Positions 28,220 to 35,537 of a stretch of 64,000 nt of DNA are shown here, piece after piece (the first letter of the stretch is position 1; every line of letters begins with the position of its first letter). The notes below the pieces were generated by a model. The model searched no databases. It saw nothing but the letters and a program-made list of their open reading frames with translations, and had not been told where the DNA came from. Source of the stretch: Salinivirga cyanobacteriivorans (GTDB taxonomy: Bacteria; Bacteroidota; Bacteroidia; Bacteroidales; Salinivirgaceae); contig NZ_CP013118.1 of assembly GCF_001443605.1 (NCBI RefSeq), positions 2,181,501 to 2,245,500 on the forward strand, read 5' to 3'. Both the position numbers and the translations under genes were made by a program.

Positions 28220-29482
28220 ATGCGAAACCAGGAACTACCATATCATTTTTTCACACGTAACAGAAAAAACCTTCAAAAGGAGCTTGATCCAAACACACTT
28301 GTAATTGTATTCTCCAACCCCGTATCTATCCGCAATGGCGACCAGCAATACGTTTACCGGCAGGCTTCAGATATGTTTTACTTCTCTGGCATCACACAAC
28401 CCGAAACTGTGCTTGTAATGTACACCACCGGGGGTAACTGGCATGAAATTCTGTTCATCAACCGCCCCGACCCCAAAACAGCAATTTGGGATGGCTACCA
28501 GCTCAGCACCTCCGATGCAGCGGATGCAAGTGGTATAACAGATGTAAGGTATACCGATACAATGAAGCAAACACTGGAAAAGCTGGCCAAAAAGAACGAA
28601 AAAATAGCTTCAACCTATCCGGCACACCATCAAGTTGCTGTACAATGGACAGAATACCTGATGGAACGTAATAAAAAAATCAGCCAAACCAGCCTGCAAC
28701 CAATCATTTCAAAGCTGCGTGTAATTAAAGCGCCTGAAGAGATAGCCCTGATTAAAAAAGCAATTGACATTACAAGAAAAGCCTTCGAAAATCTGGTTCC
28801 AATGATTCAATCAGGTGCAATGGAATACGAGATCGAAGCTGAAATGATACGCACTTTTATTGCGAATGGCTCGGATGGACATGCATTTGACCCCATAGTC
28901 GCATCGGGCCCAAATGCATGTATCTTACACTATATCAACAACAAACGGAAAATGAAGAATAAAGAGTTGTTGCTACTGGATTTTGGTGCTGAGTTTAACG
29001 GATATGCAGCAGATATGAGTCGCACATTACCTATTGGAGGGCATTTTACCACCCGGCAAAAAGAGGTTTACCGGGCCGTGCTTAATGCACAAAAAGAGGC
29101 CATAAACCTCATTCGGCCCGGCATAAGTATAAAAGATATAAATGAGCAAGTGCGACAATACCTGGAAAAAAAGATGGTTGAACTTAATCTTTTTACTGAA
29201 CAGGATATAGCACAACAAAACCCTGAAGAACCGCTGACCCGAAAATATTTCATGCACGGGACAAGCCATTTTATGGGTATTGACGTGCATGATATAGGCG
29301 ATACGAAAGAAAAGCTGCAACCCGGCATGGTACTAACTTGTGAACCGGGGCTTTACATTAAAGAAGAGTCGCTGGGTGTACGCATTGAAAACGACATACT
29401 GGTAACTGAAAATGGCAACGAAGACCTCATGGCCCATATTCCCCGAGAAACAGAAGACATTGAGCGATTGCTAAGCCAATGA
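28220..29482 (+). CDS. pepP: Xaa-Pro aminopeptidase (aminopeptidase P, M24B)
   Basis: A 420-residue two-domain metallopeptidase. The creatinase-like N-terminal domain (1-170) is followed by the pita-bread fold with its metal ligands: LLLDFGAEFNGYAADMSRT (two Asp), HGTSHFMGIDVHD (His), LTCEPGLY (Glu) and RIENDILV (Glu). It removes N-terminal residues preceding proline, in the cytoplasm. It precedes the Memo-AMMECR1 cluster by 76 bases; whether it is functionally linked is unclear. Confidence 0.93.
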   Translation: MRNQELPYHFFTRNRKNLQKELDPNTLVIVFSNPVSIRNGDQQYVYRQASDMFYFSGITQPETVLVMYTTGGNWHEILFINRPDPKTAIWDGYQLSTSDAADASGITDVRYTDTMKQTLEKLAKKNEKIASTYPAHHQVAVQWTEYLMERNKKISQTSLQPIISKLRVIKAPEEIALIKKAIDITRKAFENLVPMIQSGAMEYEIEAEMIRTFIANGSDGHAFDPIVASGPNACILHYINNKRKMKNKELLLLDFGAEFNGYAADMSRTLPIGGHFTTRQKEVYRAVLNAQKEAINLIRPGISIKDINEQVRQYLEKKMVELNLFTEQDIAQQNPEEPLTRKYFMHGTSHFMGIDVHDIGDTKEKLQPGMVLTCEPGLYIKEESLGVRIENDILVTENGNEDLMAHIPRETEDIERLLSQ

Positions 29483-29558
29483 TAAAAATATATTAAAAAA
29501 TTAAAATTGGCAAAATCTATTTTTTTGATTATCTTTTTAAGGGCCAACAAAATAGGGT

Positions 29559-31073
29559 ATGTCAATGAACAAAAGCACACTAATCTTTTTCGCAATGCTG
29601 ATGTTGCTGTTTATTGGATGCCGGTCGCAGGACCATCCAAAACAACACATCAGGCAAGCTGCCGTAGCAGGCCAGTTCTACCATAAAAACCCGGCTCAAC
29701 TAAAAAATCAACTAAAACAGTTTTTTTCAGAAGCTAAAACTAAACGCGCCGGAACAACACGAGCAGTCATCGTTCCTCATGCCGGATATGTATTCTCAGG
29801 TCAGGTTGCCGCATCGGCATTCAACCAGATCAACCCAGATCGAAAAATAAAAAACGTATTTCTTTTGGGTTCTGCCCATCGTGTTTGGGTAAACAAAGCA
29901 TCGGTATTTGGTGGTGAAGCATATGAAACACCTTTGGGACAAGTACGGGTAAACACCGAAATTGTACATAAACTACTCGAAAATTCTGCGTTCAGCTATA
30001 ACGAAAAGGCACATAAAAACGAGCATAGCCTTGAGGTAGAATTGCCCTTTCTGCAACATCACCTCAAAAACAACTTTCAAATTATCCCCATACTTGTTAA
30101 CACACAAGACCAAAGGGAAATTCAATCCATTGCCAAAGCACTAAAACCATATTACACTCAGAATAATCTTTTCGTAATAAGTACCGATTTTTCTCATTAT
30201 CCTTCCGACAAAGATGCTTGCAAAACAGACAGTCTTACAGCAGAAGCTGTGGCATCAGGCAACACTGAAGAACTACTGATGCAAATTGAAAAAAACAACC
30301 AGAAAGGCGTCTCCAATTTAAAAACAAGTATGTGTGGATTAAGTGCCATGTTGGTTTTTCTCGACATAATTGAAGATCAGGGGTATACAATTGAAAAAAT
30401 TGAGTATCGCAATTCATCGGACAGTCAATATGGCAACAAAAACAGAGTAGTCGGTTACTGGGCCATGCGTGTCGTCTCAAAAAAGGCAATAAAAGCCAAA
30501 GAAGCCAGTTTCTCACTCAACGCAACAGAAAAAAACTACTTACTCAAATTAGCAAGAAACACAATAGACCAATATTTAAAAACAAAACGAATTCCTGCCA
30601 TACCTGAAAACGATTTAACTCCCAATTTAAAAACAAAAACAGGTTGCTTCGTCACCTTGCATAAAAACGGCAGGCTCCGCGGATGTATCGGTAATTTTTC
30701 GGGTACACTCCCGCTGGCAGAAGGCGTACAGGAAATGGCTGTGGCAGCGGCTACCGAAGATCCACGTTTCAATACTGTAAGGTCTGAAGAATTGAAATCG
30801 ATAAAAATTGAAATTTCAGTGCTTACCCCGCTTAAGCCCATTGATAATCTTAAAGATTTTGAATTGGGTAAGCATGGTATTTACATCCAAAAAGGCATGC
30901 ATTCGGGCACCTACCTACCACAAGTTGCCGATGATAAAAACTGGACAAAGGAGGAGTTTGTAAGCCACTGCTCAAAATATAAAGCCGGTTTGGGCAAAGA
31001 TGGTTGGAAGAAAGCCAAATTGTATACATATGAAGCTTTAATCTTTTCAGAAAAATCTCATAGCAATGAATAA
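29559..31073 (+). CDS. AmmeMemoRadiSam system: Memo (protein B) - AMMECR1 (protein A) fusion lipoprotein
   Basis: A 504-residue fusion. Residues 1-21 end in LFIGC, a lipobox, so the mature protein should be lipid-anchored outside the cytoplasm. The Memo domain (about 30-305) carries VPHAGYVFSGQVAASAF, LLGSAHRVW, HSLEVELPFLQHH and ISTDFSHYP, which include the His/Asp/Cys positions of the dioxygenase-like fold. The AMMECR1 domain (about 320-500) has LRGCIGNFSGTLPLAEG and VAAATEDPRF. It overlaps the radical SAM gene by eight bases. The biochemical function of the system is not established to my knowledge. Confidence 0.9.
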   Translation: MSMNKSTLIFFAMLMLLFIGCRSQDHPKQHIRQAAVAGQFYHKNPAQLKNQLKQFFSEAKTKRAGTTRAVIVPHAGYVFSGQVAASAFNQINPDRKIKNVFLLGSAHRVWVNKASVFGGEAYETPLGQVRVNTEIVHKLLENSAFSYNEKAHKNEHSLEVELPFLQHHLKNNFQIIPILVNTQDQREIQSIAKALKPYYTQNNLFVISTDFSHYPSDKDACKTDSLTAEAVASGNTEELLMQIEKNNQKGVSNLKTSMCGLSAMLVFLDIIEDQGYTIEKIEYRNSSDSQYGNKNRVVGYWAMRVVSKKAIKAKEASFSLNATEKNYLLKLARNTIDQYLKTKRIPAIPENDLTPNLKTKTGCFVTLHKNGRLRGCIGNFSGTLPLAEGVQEMAVAAATEDPRFNTVRSEELKSIKIEISVLTPLKPIDNLKDFELGKHGIYIQKGMHSGTYLPQVADDKNWTKEEFVSHCSKYKAGLGKDGWKKAKLYTYEALIFSEKSHSNE

Positions 31074-32289
31074 ATACCAGAAACTAATCGTCATCGCAGC
31101 CCTTATTGTTTCTATTGTGGCCATTGCTGTACAAATAATCTTTTACCAACCCCGGCAAGCTGCAGAAAAAATCGCTGTAAAAGAGACCTTCACTCCTCCC
31201 TGCATGAAGGCCGGTATTGCAAGCTTACCTCAAAGTAAAATAACACGCCAGTTGGTGGAATCGCATAACCTTTCCATGAAAGAATCTTACTATTACGATA
31301 AAATACCGGCAACCGGCGAAGTGATATGCCGGCTTTGCCCCCACAAATGCATTTTGCGTGAAGGCGAACTCGGCGATTGCAGAGTGCGGGCAAATGTAGA
31401 AGGCAAATTACGCACACTGGTCTACGCCCGGCCAATAACAATGCACCTCGACCCAATTGAAAAAAAACCTTTTTTTCACTTCCTCCCTACAAAAAAAACC
31501 CTTTCAATAGCCACAGCAGGTTGCAACCTGCGCTGCAGAAATTGCCAAAACTGGCAAATCAGCCAGCTATCTCCATTCGAAATGGAAAAAGTAAAAGTAA
31601 GGTCACCCAAAACAATAGTAAACCTTGCCAGGAAATACAATGCCGAAATAATTTCATACACCTACAACGACCCCATTGTATTTTTTGAATACATGCTGGA
31701 GACAGCCAAATTAGCGCATAAAAATGGCATTAAAAACACAATGGTTACGGCGGGTTTTATAAATGAAGAACCAATGGAGGAACTGGCTCAATATATCGAC
31801 GGTGCGACGGTAGACATAAAAGGTATGACGAATGAATTTTACGACCGGTTCAACACAGGAGAACTCGACCCGGTATTAGATGCAATTAAGGTAATGAAAA
31901 AAGAGGGTGTATGGCTTGAAATCAGCTACCTAGTGATTCCGGGAGAGAATGACACTAACGAAGATTTCGATAAATTTGCCCGGTGGGTGAAAGACAATAC
32001 AGGCAAAGGAACGCCTGTACATTTTCTGCGTTTCTTCCCACACTACCAAATGAAATCGAAACCAGCCACGCCGGTGCCAACGCTCAAACGCGCGCGTAAA
32101 CGGGCAATAAATGCCGGATTGGAGTACGTATACATCGGCAATGTGCGCGACCCGGAAACAGAAGATACCTTTTGCCCGCATTGCCATAAAAAAATTATCG
32201 ATCGCAACGGATATCAAATGAAGGCACTGCATATAAAAGATGGTAAGTGCGAATTTTGCAATCAACCCATAAACGGAATCTGGAAGTAG
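31066..32289 (+). CDS. AmmeMemoRadiSam system radical SAM enzyme, with an N-terminal membrane anchor
   Basis: A 407-residue radical SAM protein. An N-terminal hydrophobic helix (residues 7-27) with MNKYQK before it suggests a signal-anchor. A four-Cys region (CRLCPHKC...GDC) precedes the cluster motif CNLRCRNCQNW near residue 150. The C-terminus is a zinc-ribbon-like CPHCHKK...CEFC. The layout matches the pyruvate-formate-lyase-activase-like enzyme paired with Memo and AMMECR1. It overlaps the fusion gene upstream and abuts the membrane gene downstream, so all three form one transcript. The membrane anchor is unusual for a radical SAM enzyme. Confidence 0.88.
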   Translation: MNKYQKLIVIAALIVSIVAIAVQIIFYQPRQAAEKIAVKETFTPPCMKAGIASLPQSKITRQLVESHNLSMKESYYYDKIPATGEVICRLCPHKCILREGELGDCRVRANVEGKLRTLVYARPITMHLDPIEKKPFFHFLPTKKTLSIATAGCNLRCRNCQNWQISQLSPFEMEKVKVRSPKTIVNLARKYNAEIISYTYNDPIVFFEYMLETAKLAHKNGIKNTMVTAGFINEEPMEELAQYIDGATVDIKGMTNEFYDRFNTGELDPVLDAIKVMKKEGVWLEISYLVIPGENDTNEDFDKFARWVKDNTGKGTPVHFLRFFPHYQMKSKPATPVPTLKRARKRAINAGLEYVYIGNVRDPETEDTFCPHCHKKIIDRNGYQMKALHIKDGKCEFCNQPINGIWK

Positions 32290-34401
32290 ATGAATCAAAA
32301 TCTGAAAAATGGCTACTTGTTCTTTTTGGTCAGTTTTATTGCCTTACTCACACAGGTAATTTACCTGCGTCAGGTACTTATGTTGTTTGAGCAATCAGAA
32401 TATATTATCAGCATTTTCCTGTTTCTGTGGTTAGGGGCAAATGGATTGGGCGTGCTGCTTGGCAGCAGGCAAAGTTTTTCAACAACCCGGTTATACACCC
32501 TGGTTCAATTATACAGTGTTTTTGCTATTGTTTTTTATTATGTAATAATTATTGCCAGACCTGAGCTTTTAGGTATCACCACTTCCATGAGTTTAATGCG
32601 CGGAATTATCTACACTGCAAATTCTATAATTCTCATAAGCGGTTTTAACGGATGGTTATTTGCCCAATTTGCTAAACAAACAAAAACAGGGCAAAACGTA
32701 TTGATTCTATACAAAATAGAAACACTGGCTTTTATTCTTGCCGGTCTGCTTTCAACTATTGTTTATCTCTATTATCCGGCATTCTTAATTCTTGCCGGGG
32801 CAGCTGTAACTACACAACTATTAGTGTTAAGGCAACAAAAAAAATGGTGGAATTACCTGTCAATAGCACTGATTCTGATATTGATACTTTTTAAACCTAC
32901 AATTGAAGCGCAAAGCTTAAAAACGTTGTTTGCCGGTTACAGTTTTGTAGAATCAAAATCGACTTCAGAAGGCGAATTAACACTATTGGCTTCCAAGGAG
33001 GGGGCAGATACTTTATTGCTCTTTCAGGGATCACCGGCCATAAAAGCAAATCCGCCTGCTGCTGCTGAAGAGGCAACCCTTCCGGCTCTTGCACAAGTTC
33101 ATGAAAACCCTTCTATTTTAATAACAGGCAGCGATATTGTACCATTATTAACCGGGCTATCTCAGGTAAAGCATAAAGATATCCACATACTTACAGAAGA
33201 CCTGAAATACTTTAAAATACTTCAAACGCACTTACCTGCGCGCATTAAAAAAATTATACAAAACCCTAATGTCAGAGTTATCCACAAAACACTACAAAAC
33301 CATCTGAAAAACAGAGCAGGTAAATATGATTTAATATACATTAATGAACCCCGGCCTGCATTGATGCAAAATGCGCTGATGTATTTTCCGCAAAACATAA
33401 AAATGCTGCATGAAGCATTGAATACCGGTGGTTGCCTGAGTCTTTTATTCCAGTCAGAGGCGGCCTATTCAGGACGAATAAACAAAAACCTGAAGGGTAG
33501 TGTATTCAATACAACCAAACAGACCTTTCGACACACAGAAGTGCTTGGTTTAGATAATTTTACGGTAATACTGGCCTCAGAGAACCCACTTTCCACCGGT
33601 TTAACAGAAATGCAACAAAATCTGGCAAAATACGGTATTCAGCCAACCTATTTCAACAGTTTTCATGTGGGCAACAGGTTGCGGAATCAGAAAAATATCG
33701 GGATGGATAAAATTACAGGATACGAAACCAAATTGTCATTTGACAAACCGCTGGTTTACCTGGCCGGGTTACTTCAAATGTTCCAAAAATACTCAGTAAA
33801 CCTTACAACTCGAGTTATGGCAATTGGTGAAAAAATATATCGCAATCTCCGCATTTGGCAATTGATTGCATTAATAATATTTATATCAGCATTTATGCTT
33901 TTCTCTTATCGTAAACCCGGTTATGCTGTTGTTTTCCATGGAGGTTTTACAGGGATAGCCGCACAAACGATGTTTATTTATTTCTACCAACTCCATTTTG
34001 GTCACATCTATTTACTCATTGGCTTATTAATAGCCCTATTTATGGTGGGCTTACTTGGTGGGCTAATGCTCAAAAATACTGATCAAAATAAGCACCTCGC
34101 AGTTACGGCACTAATATCAATAATTGCCTTGTTACTTTTGCTTACATTAACAGGATCGCGGGTCGCTGTTTTTACAGGCATTTTACTATCTGGTTTTTAT
34201 ACGGGTCTTCTTTTTAATACAATAAACTATCACAAACAAATTCCCGGCCTACACCTCTATGTAAACGATTTATTGGGTGCAATGGCCGGGAATATTTTAG
34301 TTCCTATACTAATAATTCCTTTGCTTGGATTTTATTTACCAGTAATCCTGATATTAGGAATGGGAATCATCAGTCACTTTTTATTATATCAGCGATTTTA
34401 G
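32290..34401 (+). CDS. polytopic membrane protein with degenerate spermidine-synthase-like domain
   Basis: A 703-residue protein. Residues 1-200 hold six to seven transmembrane segments. Residues about 225-450 form a soluble Rossmann-like domain related to spermidine synthases, and 510-703 hold another six to seven segments. The usual glycine-rich loop reads ILITGSDIVPLL and the catalytic Asp region reads YDLIYINEPRP, so the SAM/polyamine-site signature is eroded. It begins at the base after the radical SAM stop. Similar fused proteins accompany Memo/AMMECR1 genes. It may transport or modify a small molecule; activity as a polyamine synthase looks doubtful. Confidence 0.7.
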   Translation: MNQNLKNGYLFFLVSFIALLTQVIYLRQVLMLFEQSEYIISIFLFLWLGANGLGVLLGSRQSFSTTRLYTLVQLYSVFAIVFYYVIIIARPELLGITTSMSLMRGIIYTANSIILISGFNGWLFAQFAKQTKTGQNVLILYKIETLAFILAGLLSTIVYLYYPAFLILAGAAVTTQLLVLRQQKKWWNYLSIALILILILFKPTIEAQSLKTLFAGYSFVESKSTSEGELTLLASKEGADTLLLFQGSPAIKANPPAAAEEATLPALAQVHENPSILITGSDIVPLLTGLSQVKHKDIHILTEDLKYFKILQTHLPARIKKIIQNPNVRVIHKTLQNHLKNRAGKYDLIYINEPRPALMQNALMYFPQNIKMLHEALNTGGCLSLLFQSEAAYSGRINKNLKGSVFNTTKQTFRHTEVLGLDNFTVILASENPLSTGLTEMQQNLAKYGIQPTYFNSFHVGNRLRNQKNIGMDKITGYETKLSFDKPLVYLAGLLQMFQKYSVNLTTRVMAIGEKIYRNLRIWQLIALIIFISAFMLFSYRKPGYAVVFHGGFTGIAAQTMFIYFYQLHFGHIYLLIGLLIALFMVGLLGGLMLKNTDQNKHLAVTALISIIALLLLLTLTGSRVAVFTGILLSGFYTGLLFNTINYHKQIPGLHLYVNDLLGAMAGNILVPILIIPLLGFYLPVILILGMGIISHFLLYQRF

Positions 34402-35537
34402 AAATCGAGTTTCTTGCGCAATTCTTTTGGCACAGCATCTTTGTGCACCATTATAGCAATAGTCTTGGCTTTAACAAACGGAAGCGACATATGTAATTTT
34501 CCCTGAAAATCATTGCTATTATGATTCCATGAATTTTTTATGATATAATATGGATTTCCTTCCCTGTCTTCTGAAGTACCAATCAAATGCATCAAATGGT
34601 CATCGGTAGATTTCTGCGACATAAATGTAGCTTCACGTAAATCTGTGGTCACCTCTTTTTCCGGCGCAATATCGTTCAAATAAGACTCATCTTTAAGCAC
34701 ATCCTCTATCGGCAAAACAGCAAAACCTTTCCCATGATTAAAACCATGCTCGCTCACATCGCCATCCCAACAAACGGTATAACCCTCTGCTATGGCATAA
34801 TCAATGGTTCCGATAAGTTCCTCCAGCTTTACATTGTAATAATGATCAAAAGACCAGTTGTCCGGAATATCAAGATTAACTGATGTATAGTAAGGGTAGA
34901 ATTCATAAGAAGTTAACTCCACATAATCATCAGGGTTTACACCTAAAGATTTTTGAAATTCCTTACTTGTCACTTTTTTTCCATTCCATTCAAAATTTTC
35001 AGGTAAAATACCGAAATAAACATCCATTACAGCCCTAAAGGCGTCGATCCACAAAGGCATTTTTCTGCGTTGTTCGGCAAGTTTATCAAGCATTCCGTGC
35101 ATCATGGCTACAACTTCAGAATGATTATGTTCGGTTCCCTCGTATGCTATTCCCGTGTAGGCCGCTTCAGGCACCATACCCTCTTCACGAATAACATTCA
35201 TCACATCATGCGCCTGTCCGCCCTGTGAAAAGTTGGTTTGACCATGGCGCATAATATAGCGTTGAGCTTTATCTAAATATGCATGATAGACAAAAAACAT
35301 TTCACTTAAATCCACAGAATCTTTTCCCATACGCATAATTTCGGATTCGAGAAAAGAGGTTGTGGCAAAACTCCAACAAGTACCTGCCCTGCCCTGATCT
35401 TTTGCCATGGTATGTGGCAGTTCTTTTACAATATTAAAATCATAGGCAGTGGTATTTTCGGTTTCCTGAGCATTGGAATATGACAAAAAACCTACGATAA
35501 AAACCATAATTAAATTGGTTGATAGATGTGCTTTCAT
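34398..35537 (-). CDS. C1-family cysteine peptidase (bleomycin hydrolase/PepC-like), exported
   Basis: A 379-residue papain-fold peptidase with an N-terminal signal (residues 1-23, SNAQ). The active-site segment is DQGRAGTCWSFATTSFLE near residue 45-62, with the catalytic Cys. HLMHLIGTS supplies the His and IIKNSWNHN the Asn. Bleomycin-hydrolase relatives are usually cytoplasmic aminopeptidases; this one should be periplasmic. Its last bases overlap the end of the convergent membrane-protein gene by four. Confidence 0.88.
   Translation of the reverse strand: MKAHLSTNLIMVFIVGFLSYSNAQETENTTAYDFNIVKELPHTMAKDQGRAGTCWSFATTSFLESEIMRMGKDSVDLSEMFFVYHAYLDKAQRYIMRHGQTNFSQGGQAHDVMNVIREEGMVPEAAYTGIAYEGTEHNHSEVVAMMHGMLDKLAEQRRKMPLWIDAFRAVMDVYFGILPENFEWNGKKVTSKEFQKSLGVNPDDYVELTSYEFYPYYTSVNLDIPDNWSFDHYYNVKLEELIGTIDYAIAEGYTVCWDGDVSEHGFNHGKGFAVLPIEDVLKDESYLNDIAPEKEVTTDLREATFMSQKSTDDHLMHLIGTSEDREGNPYYIIKNSWNHNSNDFQGKLHMSLPFVKAKTIAIMVHKDAVPKELRKKLDF

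Follow-up and report, generated by a model that had tools for sequence, protein, structure and literature searches.

A candidate envelope version of the AmmeMemoRadiSam system with a polytopic partner in Salinivirga cyanobacteriivorans

INTRODUCTION

The AmmeMemoRadiSam system consists of Memo, AMMECR1 and a radical S-adenosylmethionine (SAM) enzyme (families TIGR04336, TIGR04335 and TIGR04337, respectively). Here we describe a module with the same three components in a 64,000-nucleotide stretch of the Salinivirga cyanobacteriivorans genome (contig NZ_CP013118.1, positions 2,181,501 to 2,245,500, forward strand), hereafter called the window. Unlike the ordinary system, this module combines a lipoprotein-like Memo-AMMECR1 fusion, a radical SAM enzyme with a membrane anchor and an extra polytopic partner, while relatives of the enzyme carry starts resembling twin-arginine translocation (Tat) signals. 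By family, and within the literature searched, it is a variant of AmmeMemoRadiSam not previously described.

As far as we are aware, the requirement for SAM, a strong reductant and iron-sulfur (Fe-S) assembly is why radical SAM enzymes are considered to reside in the cytoplasm (or in organelles). An exported radical SAM enzyme was not described anywhere in the literature that we searched, which includes few subscription journals. The PCAD-Memo superfamily is reportedly treated by Burroughs et al. 2019 (J Biol Chem), and a study on human MEMO1 calls its primary molecular function unknown (PMC11081632). The module therefore offers a handle on Memo and AMMECR1 biochemistry and may narrow where their substrate could lie. 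Radical chemistry may also occur here in an unexpected place, the enzyme being membrane-anchored in the window and bearing an export-like signal in many relatives. If such a conserved exported set is real, SAM, electrons and a cluster-loaded enzyme must all reach the periplasm.

Three other described systems resemble single parts of the module. The closest solved fold to the window enzyme, and the best match of its model in the PDB, is the pyruvate formate-lyase (PFL) activating enzyme, as in glycyl-radical activases (3cb8, TM-score 0.72 by target length). The CxxxCxxC motif is common to both, whereas identity is only 16% and the window enzyme carries further cysteine motifs near its N- and C-termini. 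A glycyl radical enzyme partner is not indicated, because no fourth gene was constant across 71 loci; in 40 further loci, the only families found in more than five were the module's own three. Polytopic spermidine-synthase-like proteins of the PRK03612 type (PF01564) have similar helices and a similar domain, and the window protein matches PRK03612 weakly. In contrast to that type, the module protein has a second helix bundle after the domain, which is predicted to lie outside, and the window copy is devoid of the signature residues. Finally, domains of FMN_bind and Fer4_5 electron carriers, which we liken to the NosR/RnfG and NapH/NosR types, respectively, are fused to the gammaproteobacterial homologue of the polytopic protein but not to the window protein.

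RESULTS

A conserved three-gene module

Memo, AMMECR1 and the radical SAM enzyme are adjacent in the window and each scores above its family cut-off (363 bits against a cut-off of 220 for TIGR04337; see Table 1 for the others). The fusion and radical SAM genes overlap by 8 bases (31066-31073) and the polytopic gene starts at 32290 with zero gap, exactly the packing given in the original prediction. The span proposed there, 28220-34401, correctly included the three packed genes but began with a separate M24 aminopeptidase P gene (28220-29482, as judged by family models) outside the three-gene unit.

The closest relative, L115 (genome G346 of the same order), encodes a radical SAM protein 61% identical to that of the window overall and 72% over the core. 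All three genes recur in L115 in the same order, the enzyme again has an N-terminal helix and the fusion a lipoprotein-like start; comparison of the two sequences thus indicates that the arrangement is not due to chance. In a search centred on G346 and covering 392 genomes of the order, no further match at E 1e-120 or better was obtained; 395 genomes of the class gave none above 43% identity besides the window itself. The S. cyanobacteriivorans genome (one contig) also carries a second AmmeMemoRadiSam system, at about G000:C1:3182155-3183944, composed of separate AMMECR1, radical SAM (331 residues, start MKEASFY) and Memo genes with no visible signals. Since the same genome holds this signal-less operon, the window module appears to be the envelope-type paralogue of a conventional system.

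The start of the Memo-AMMECR1 fusion displays a basic n-region, a hydrophobic stretch and a lipobox cysteine, and lipoprotein processing is thus predicted; the lipobox reads FIGC21, so that the Cys21 announced in the original prediction is indeed present. In the Memo domain, H74 and H107 align with His49 and His81 of human MEMO1 (numbering matched by hand), both included among the metal ligands named in PMC11081632. The cysteine ligand, C259, was placed by motif alone because the alignment ended before that residue. The AMMECR1 domain retains LRGCIG.

An N-terminal membrane helix had likewise been proposed for the radical SAM enzyme, and here hydropathy (best 15-residue mean of 3.3) and the structure model (helix 3-26; mean predicted local distance difference test score, pLDDT, of 80.8) agree. 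Both CxxxCxxC and the auxiliary cysteines are invariant in 36 aligned export-type radical SAM proteins, as defined below.

For the polytopic protein, 14 helices (7 + domain + 7) were read from merged hydropathy peaks averaged over 62 homologues, in line with the at least 12 originally counted. Basic short loops fall mostly on one side in these homologues, placing the N-terminus inside and the inserted domain outside, and this domain is accordingly predicted to face the periplasm. The AlphaFold model, built from 5 sequences, was poor (mean pLDDT 52) and shows seven helices before the domain. Matches to PF01564 are clear in relatives L056, L060 and L067 (E 1e-10 to 2e-15). The window protein, for its part, had no Pfam match at E 0.001 and an NCBIfam match (E 3.4e-4) far below cut-off. 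The family-conserved residues G281, G285, E289, D299, E302, D334, N362 and R363 are replaced in it; among the 62 homologues, G281 is retained in 58, E289 in 55, D334 in 58, N362 in 60 and R363 in 59, with loss in the window and L115. Neither the family score nor the nucleotide-binding and catalytic residues of a spermidine synthase or aminopropyltransferase were thus found in the window protein, and because the nucleotide-binding residues are lost its domain is probably no synthase. For the window protein, the label 'synthase-like partner' is therefore questionable. The window and L115 share the anchor and the gene order as well as the loss of the nucleotide site, so that these three traits occur jointly.

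Export-type starts among related radical SAM enzymes

TIGR04337 matches above cut-off occur in 66/296 genomes of the window's phylum, 140/295 of its order and 138/148 of the phylum of L067, a Desulfohalobiaceae locus. We take these phyla to be Bacteroidota (order Bacteroidales) and Desulfobacterota, respectively. Neighbourhoods were fetched from all three sets, including 100 regions from the list of the order and 40 from that of the phylum of L067. The resulting counts show association and not prevalence, because these loci were picked among the matches listed, largely by N-terminal length, and rows are related to one another. Short-flank duplicates (L071-L098, L001 and most of L199-L246), proteins scoring below 200 bits with a profile that we built, proteins without CxxCxxxC and proteins cut at the 5′ end were dropped before counting. 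Some calls were made by hand. L115, Tat-like by script, was reclassified as anchored by eye and L114 as signal-less. L158 (LTKREFIRYSL) was counted as signal-less though it reads Tat-like. L270 (TRKEFLK) and L284 (TRKKFLK) were signal-less in the 230-row counts; having an RK version of the motif, they were treated as export-type in the flank table. In the tree, L158, L259, L270 and L284 received the export-type label manually.

Among the 230 radical SAM rows, 107 were export-type (104 Tat-like, 1 probable and 2 anchored) and 123 signal-less; the anchored class consists of the window enzyme and L115 alone. The Tat-like starts share the consensus [S/T/N]-[K/R]-R-[E/D/Q]-F-[L/I], and L067 itself begins MNRRTFLASG...AWA. 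In Tat-type rows fetched from the list of its phylum, the arginine pair (RR) is present in 30/32 with (S/T)RRxFLK-like motifs and a weak hydrophobic region, so that export is predicted there. Residue-shuffled N-termini passed the motif filter in only 174/5200 trials. In addition, the hydrophobic stretch of the Tat-like set (median 1.45, n=104) is weaker than that of partner Memo Sec/lipoprotein signals (2.18, n=54; p 1e-19), as expected for Tat signals from PMC1182353. The module recurs in the phyla of the window and of L067, with a radical SAM enzyme whose start there is usually Tat-like by sequence.

Several loci show unusual arrangements of Tat-type genes. Three and two such radical SAM genes stand in tandem at L137 and L162, respectively, with one polytopic gene alongside. 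At L248, L250, L259, L261 and L280, from the phylum of L067, radical SAM pairs with Tat-like starts are oppositely oriented; in the L259 pair, one gene reads TRRDALK and escaped the main motif filter. The Tat-type loci L262, L271, L272 and L277 share a neighbour family, of which the L277 member is a DUF362 protein (PF04015) starting with KRRDFLK.

The enzyme start co-varies with its neighbours

A neighbouring Memo with a secretion or lipoprotein signal was found in 54/56 export-type rows (of the others, one is cut at its start and one is without), compared with 9/32 signal-less rows (20 without, 3 cut). These nine are L143 and L146, in tandem with a Tat-type enzyme, L191, which is doubtful, and L058, L060, L065, L218, L219 and L221. 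Among the 20, L055 and L056, whose proteins are identical, have Memo starts that look like Sec signals on visual inspection but were counted as 'none' because the script demands a basic residue.

The polytopic gene behaves similarly, lying near 70/107 export-type and 7/123 signal-less rows. When only rows with 2.5 kb or more of flank were considered and L270 and L284 were treated as export-type, it was near 51/75 export-type versus 2/54 signal-less rows (Fisher p 7e-15, nominal only because rows are related). Conversely, 24 of these 75 export-type rows are without it, and export-type genes with neither partner in the visible stretch do exist. The seven signal-less rows with a polytopic gene are L143 and L146 (tandem Tat-type), L270 and L284 (RK variants) and the gammaproteobacterial L056, L059 and L060; among these last three, the Memo signal is seen in L060 by script and in L056 by eye, and the L059 contig shows no Memo gene. 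That 70 of the 77 rows with a polytopic gene are export-type, together with the Memo signals in export-type rows, supports the proposal that the system works at the membrane. Homologues without anchor and lipobox, named in that proposal as potentially damaging if they kept the same gene order, exist for the Memo-AMMECR1 and radical SAM pair (for example L054, L174 and L175), with no polytopic gene in the stretch seen. At both L143 and L146, what appears to be a single operon holds a Tat-type radical SAM gene next to a signal-less one.

Possible routes for electrons were also encountered. In the gammaproteobacterial L056, L059 and L060, the polytopic protein is 1222-1304 residues long with C-terminal FMN-binding and Fer4_5 regions (by Pfam for L056 and L060, by alignment for L059). 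A NapH-like 4Fe-4S protein is encoded near Tat-type genes at L247 and L255, in the phylum of L067, and a CxxCH, a possible haem c site, follows the Tat-like signal directly in 3/104 enzymes (L034, L035 and L274). These FMN/4Fe-4S modules and CxxCH motifs fit electron delivery to the periplasm.

An exported enzyme and the alternatives

The explanation that accounts best for these data, and which we favour slightly, is an envelope form of AmmeMemoRadiSam that works as follows. In most relatives, the enzyme would receive its [4Fe-4S] cluster in the cytoplasm before being exported by Tat; a membrane anchor would replace the Tat signal in the window and in L115. Once outside, the enzyme may generate a radical on an envelope substrate or a small molecule, after which the product could be processed by the His-His-Cys metal site of Memo and the cysteine of AMMECR1, both tethered as a lipoprotein. 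A polytopic protein with an intact domain might pass SAM or a SAM-derived cosubstrate, and electrons could traverse the membrane via FMN/4Fe-4S modules like those of the gammaproteobacterial fusions. The polytopic protein of the window subtype would act as scaffold or transporter only. Provided that the radical SAM anchor is oriented as its charge bias suggests, the soluble parts of all three proteins are predicted to be periplasmic.

Several observations weigh against an exported enzyme. Outside the 32 rows mentioned above, the 72 other Tat-type rows (L067 included) have a lysine-arginine pair (KR) in 57 cases and RR in 15, while 5/5 hydrogenase small subunits from 74 genomes of the order, which we take to be sure Tat cargos, have RR. 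The Pfam model TAT_signal matched only 6/36 export-type members and was rejected as too weak a detector; it was not among the 25 (of 30) families listed for 11 signal-less members. One could therefore argue that the Tat-like starts are coincidental or non-functional, all the enzymes being cytoplasmic in an ordinary AmmeMemoRadiSam system with a lipoprotein Memo. We consider this improbable in view of the homologous RR motifs in the phylum of L067, the rarity of the motif in shuffled N-termini and the co-variation of the enzyme start with partner signals. Furthermore, PMC1182353 describes a Tat signal that naturally has KR (TtrB) and Arg-to-Lys changes that were tolerated. As this precedent stands against the RR found in all hydrogenase controls, KR acting as a working Tat signal in the window's phylum is likely but unproven.

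Co-occurrence with TatC was likewise discarded as support. TatC was present in 39/40 Tat-type genomes tested, and also in G346 and S. cyanobacteriivorans, but comparison genomes carry it nearly as often (32/36), namely 17/18 genomes of the order without TIGR04337 and 15/18 with TIGR04337 but not grouped as Tat-type. Two genomes of the window's own family, G409 and G507, gave no TatC match and one TIGR04337 match each.

Other adverse points concern the window enzyme itself. It starts with MNKYQKLIVIAALIVSIVAIA, has neither RR nor KR and, with its hydropathy of 3.3, does not look like a Tat substrate. With a Sec-type anchor, the chain would leave the cytoplasm unfolded and without its cluster. 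We know of no periplasmic source of SAM. According to PMC9251779, Sec is ineffective where complex metal cofactors are concerned. The gammaproteobacterial loci, in which a polytopic gene accompanies a signal-less radical SAM enzyme, are the clearest exception to the co-variation pattern. In a 105-row tree, moreover, the window and L115 group with signal-less L055, L056, L058, L059, L060, L065 and L221, with modest support (Shimodaira-Hasegawa-like approximate likelihood ratio test values of 82 and 92).

Alternatively, the module parts may sit on opposite faces of the membrane. The window enzyme would then be tethered to and work on the inner face with cytoplasmic SAM, reductant and Fe-S assembly, its product passing via or to the polytopic protein to Memo-AMMECR1 outside. 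Consistent with this, the enzyme is without a Tat motif, and its signal-less tree neighbours have Memo proteins with Sec or lipoprotein starts in L058, L060, L065 and L221 by script and in L055 and L056 by eye, none being seen on the L059 contig. The nucleotide-binding residues of the polytopic protein, perhaps required for SAM outside, are lost precisely in the window subtype. Nevertheless, we hold this arrangement to be possible rather than likely. The anchor shows an N-in/C-out charge bias (hand count) in the window enzyme and in L115, where it is clearest (MNKKKR before the helix); predictions place the remaining module parts on the periplasmic side; and rows with a polytopic gene are mostly export-type. 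The tree placement is not firm either, since joining the window pair to 33 Tat-type rows was not rejected (approximately unbiased test, p-AU 0.198), and, after L115, the window fusion and polytopic protein find their best matches at loci that encode Tat-type enzymes.

Because of this charge bias, the catalytic domain of the window enzyme seems somewhat more apt to face outward than inward, a preference weakened by the requirement for Fe-S cluster loading ahead of export (PMC9251779), which tells against a Sec-type anchor. Of the outward and inward alternatives raised by the original prediction, outward is thus predicted and not established, whereas the membrane location is supported. A broader proposal is a widespread exported radical SAM clade, mostly Tat-dependent, with periplasmic chemistry, SAM handover by the aminopropyltransferase-like domain and electrons from FMN/4Fe-4S modules, of which the window would be a rare Sec-anchored outward variant. 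We advance it tentatively, its chances appearing to fall a little below even; in the window variant, cluster insertion would have to follow Sec export or take place despite it.

Both orientations presuppose that translation begins upstream of the anchor. Initiation downstream, for instance at Met70 (MKESYYYDK), would yield a soluble enzyme, and this position coincides with the start of many signal-less family members (MKEA..Y). However, L115 reads LHEASFY there, with no Met, and its upstream frame aligns with that of the window, including the helix and a TR..VE..NLS stretch. A downstream start is therefore very unlikely, and the envelope argument survives this challenge.

Features of the window

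Coordinates of the module and of its parts are collected in Table 1.

Table 1. Module genes, domains and motifs, in window positions
Feature	Position	Strand	Basis
Memo-AMMECR1 fusion, predicted lipoprotein, 504 residues	29559-31073	+	TIGR04336 251 bits, TIGR04335 184 bits, PF01875, PF01871
Lipobox codons F18-I19-G20-C21	29610-29621	+	Sequence
Memo domain, residues 32-303	29652-30467	+	TIGR04336, alignment
AMMECR1 domain, residues 327-496, LRGCIG motif (C376)	30537-31046	+	TIGR04335, alignment
AmmeMemoRadiSam radical SAM enzyme, N-terminal membrane anchor, 407 residues	31066-32289	+	TIGR04337, PF04055
Membrane anchor, about residues 7-27	31084-31146	+	Hydropathy, L115 alignment, model helix 3-26
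Radical SAM CxxxCxxC (C153, C157, C160)	31522-31545	+	Invariant among 36 aligned export-type proteins
Polytopic protein, 703 residues, inserted spermidine-synthase-like domain	32290-34401	+	Hydropathy of homologues, PF01564 matches of relatives, low-confidence model
Synthase-like domain, residues ~205-520, predicted periplasmic	32902-33849	+	Hydropathy, alignment; nucleotide-binding signature gone in window and L115

A gene for a papain-like C1 peptidase (34398-35537, minus strand) converges on the module and overlaps its last gene by 4 bases; as judged by eye, its product is likely to carry a signal peptide.

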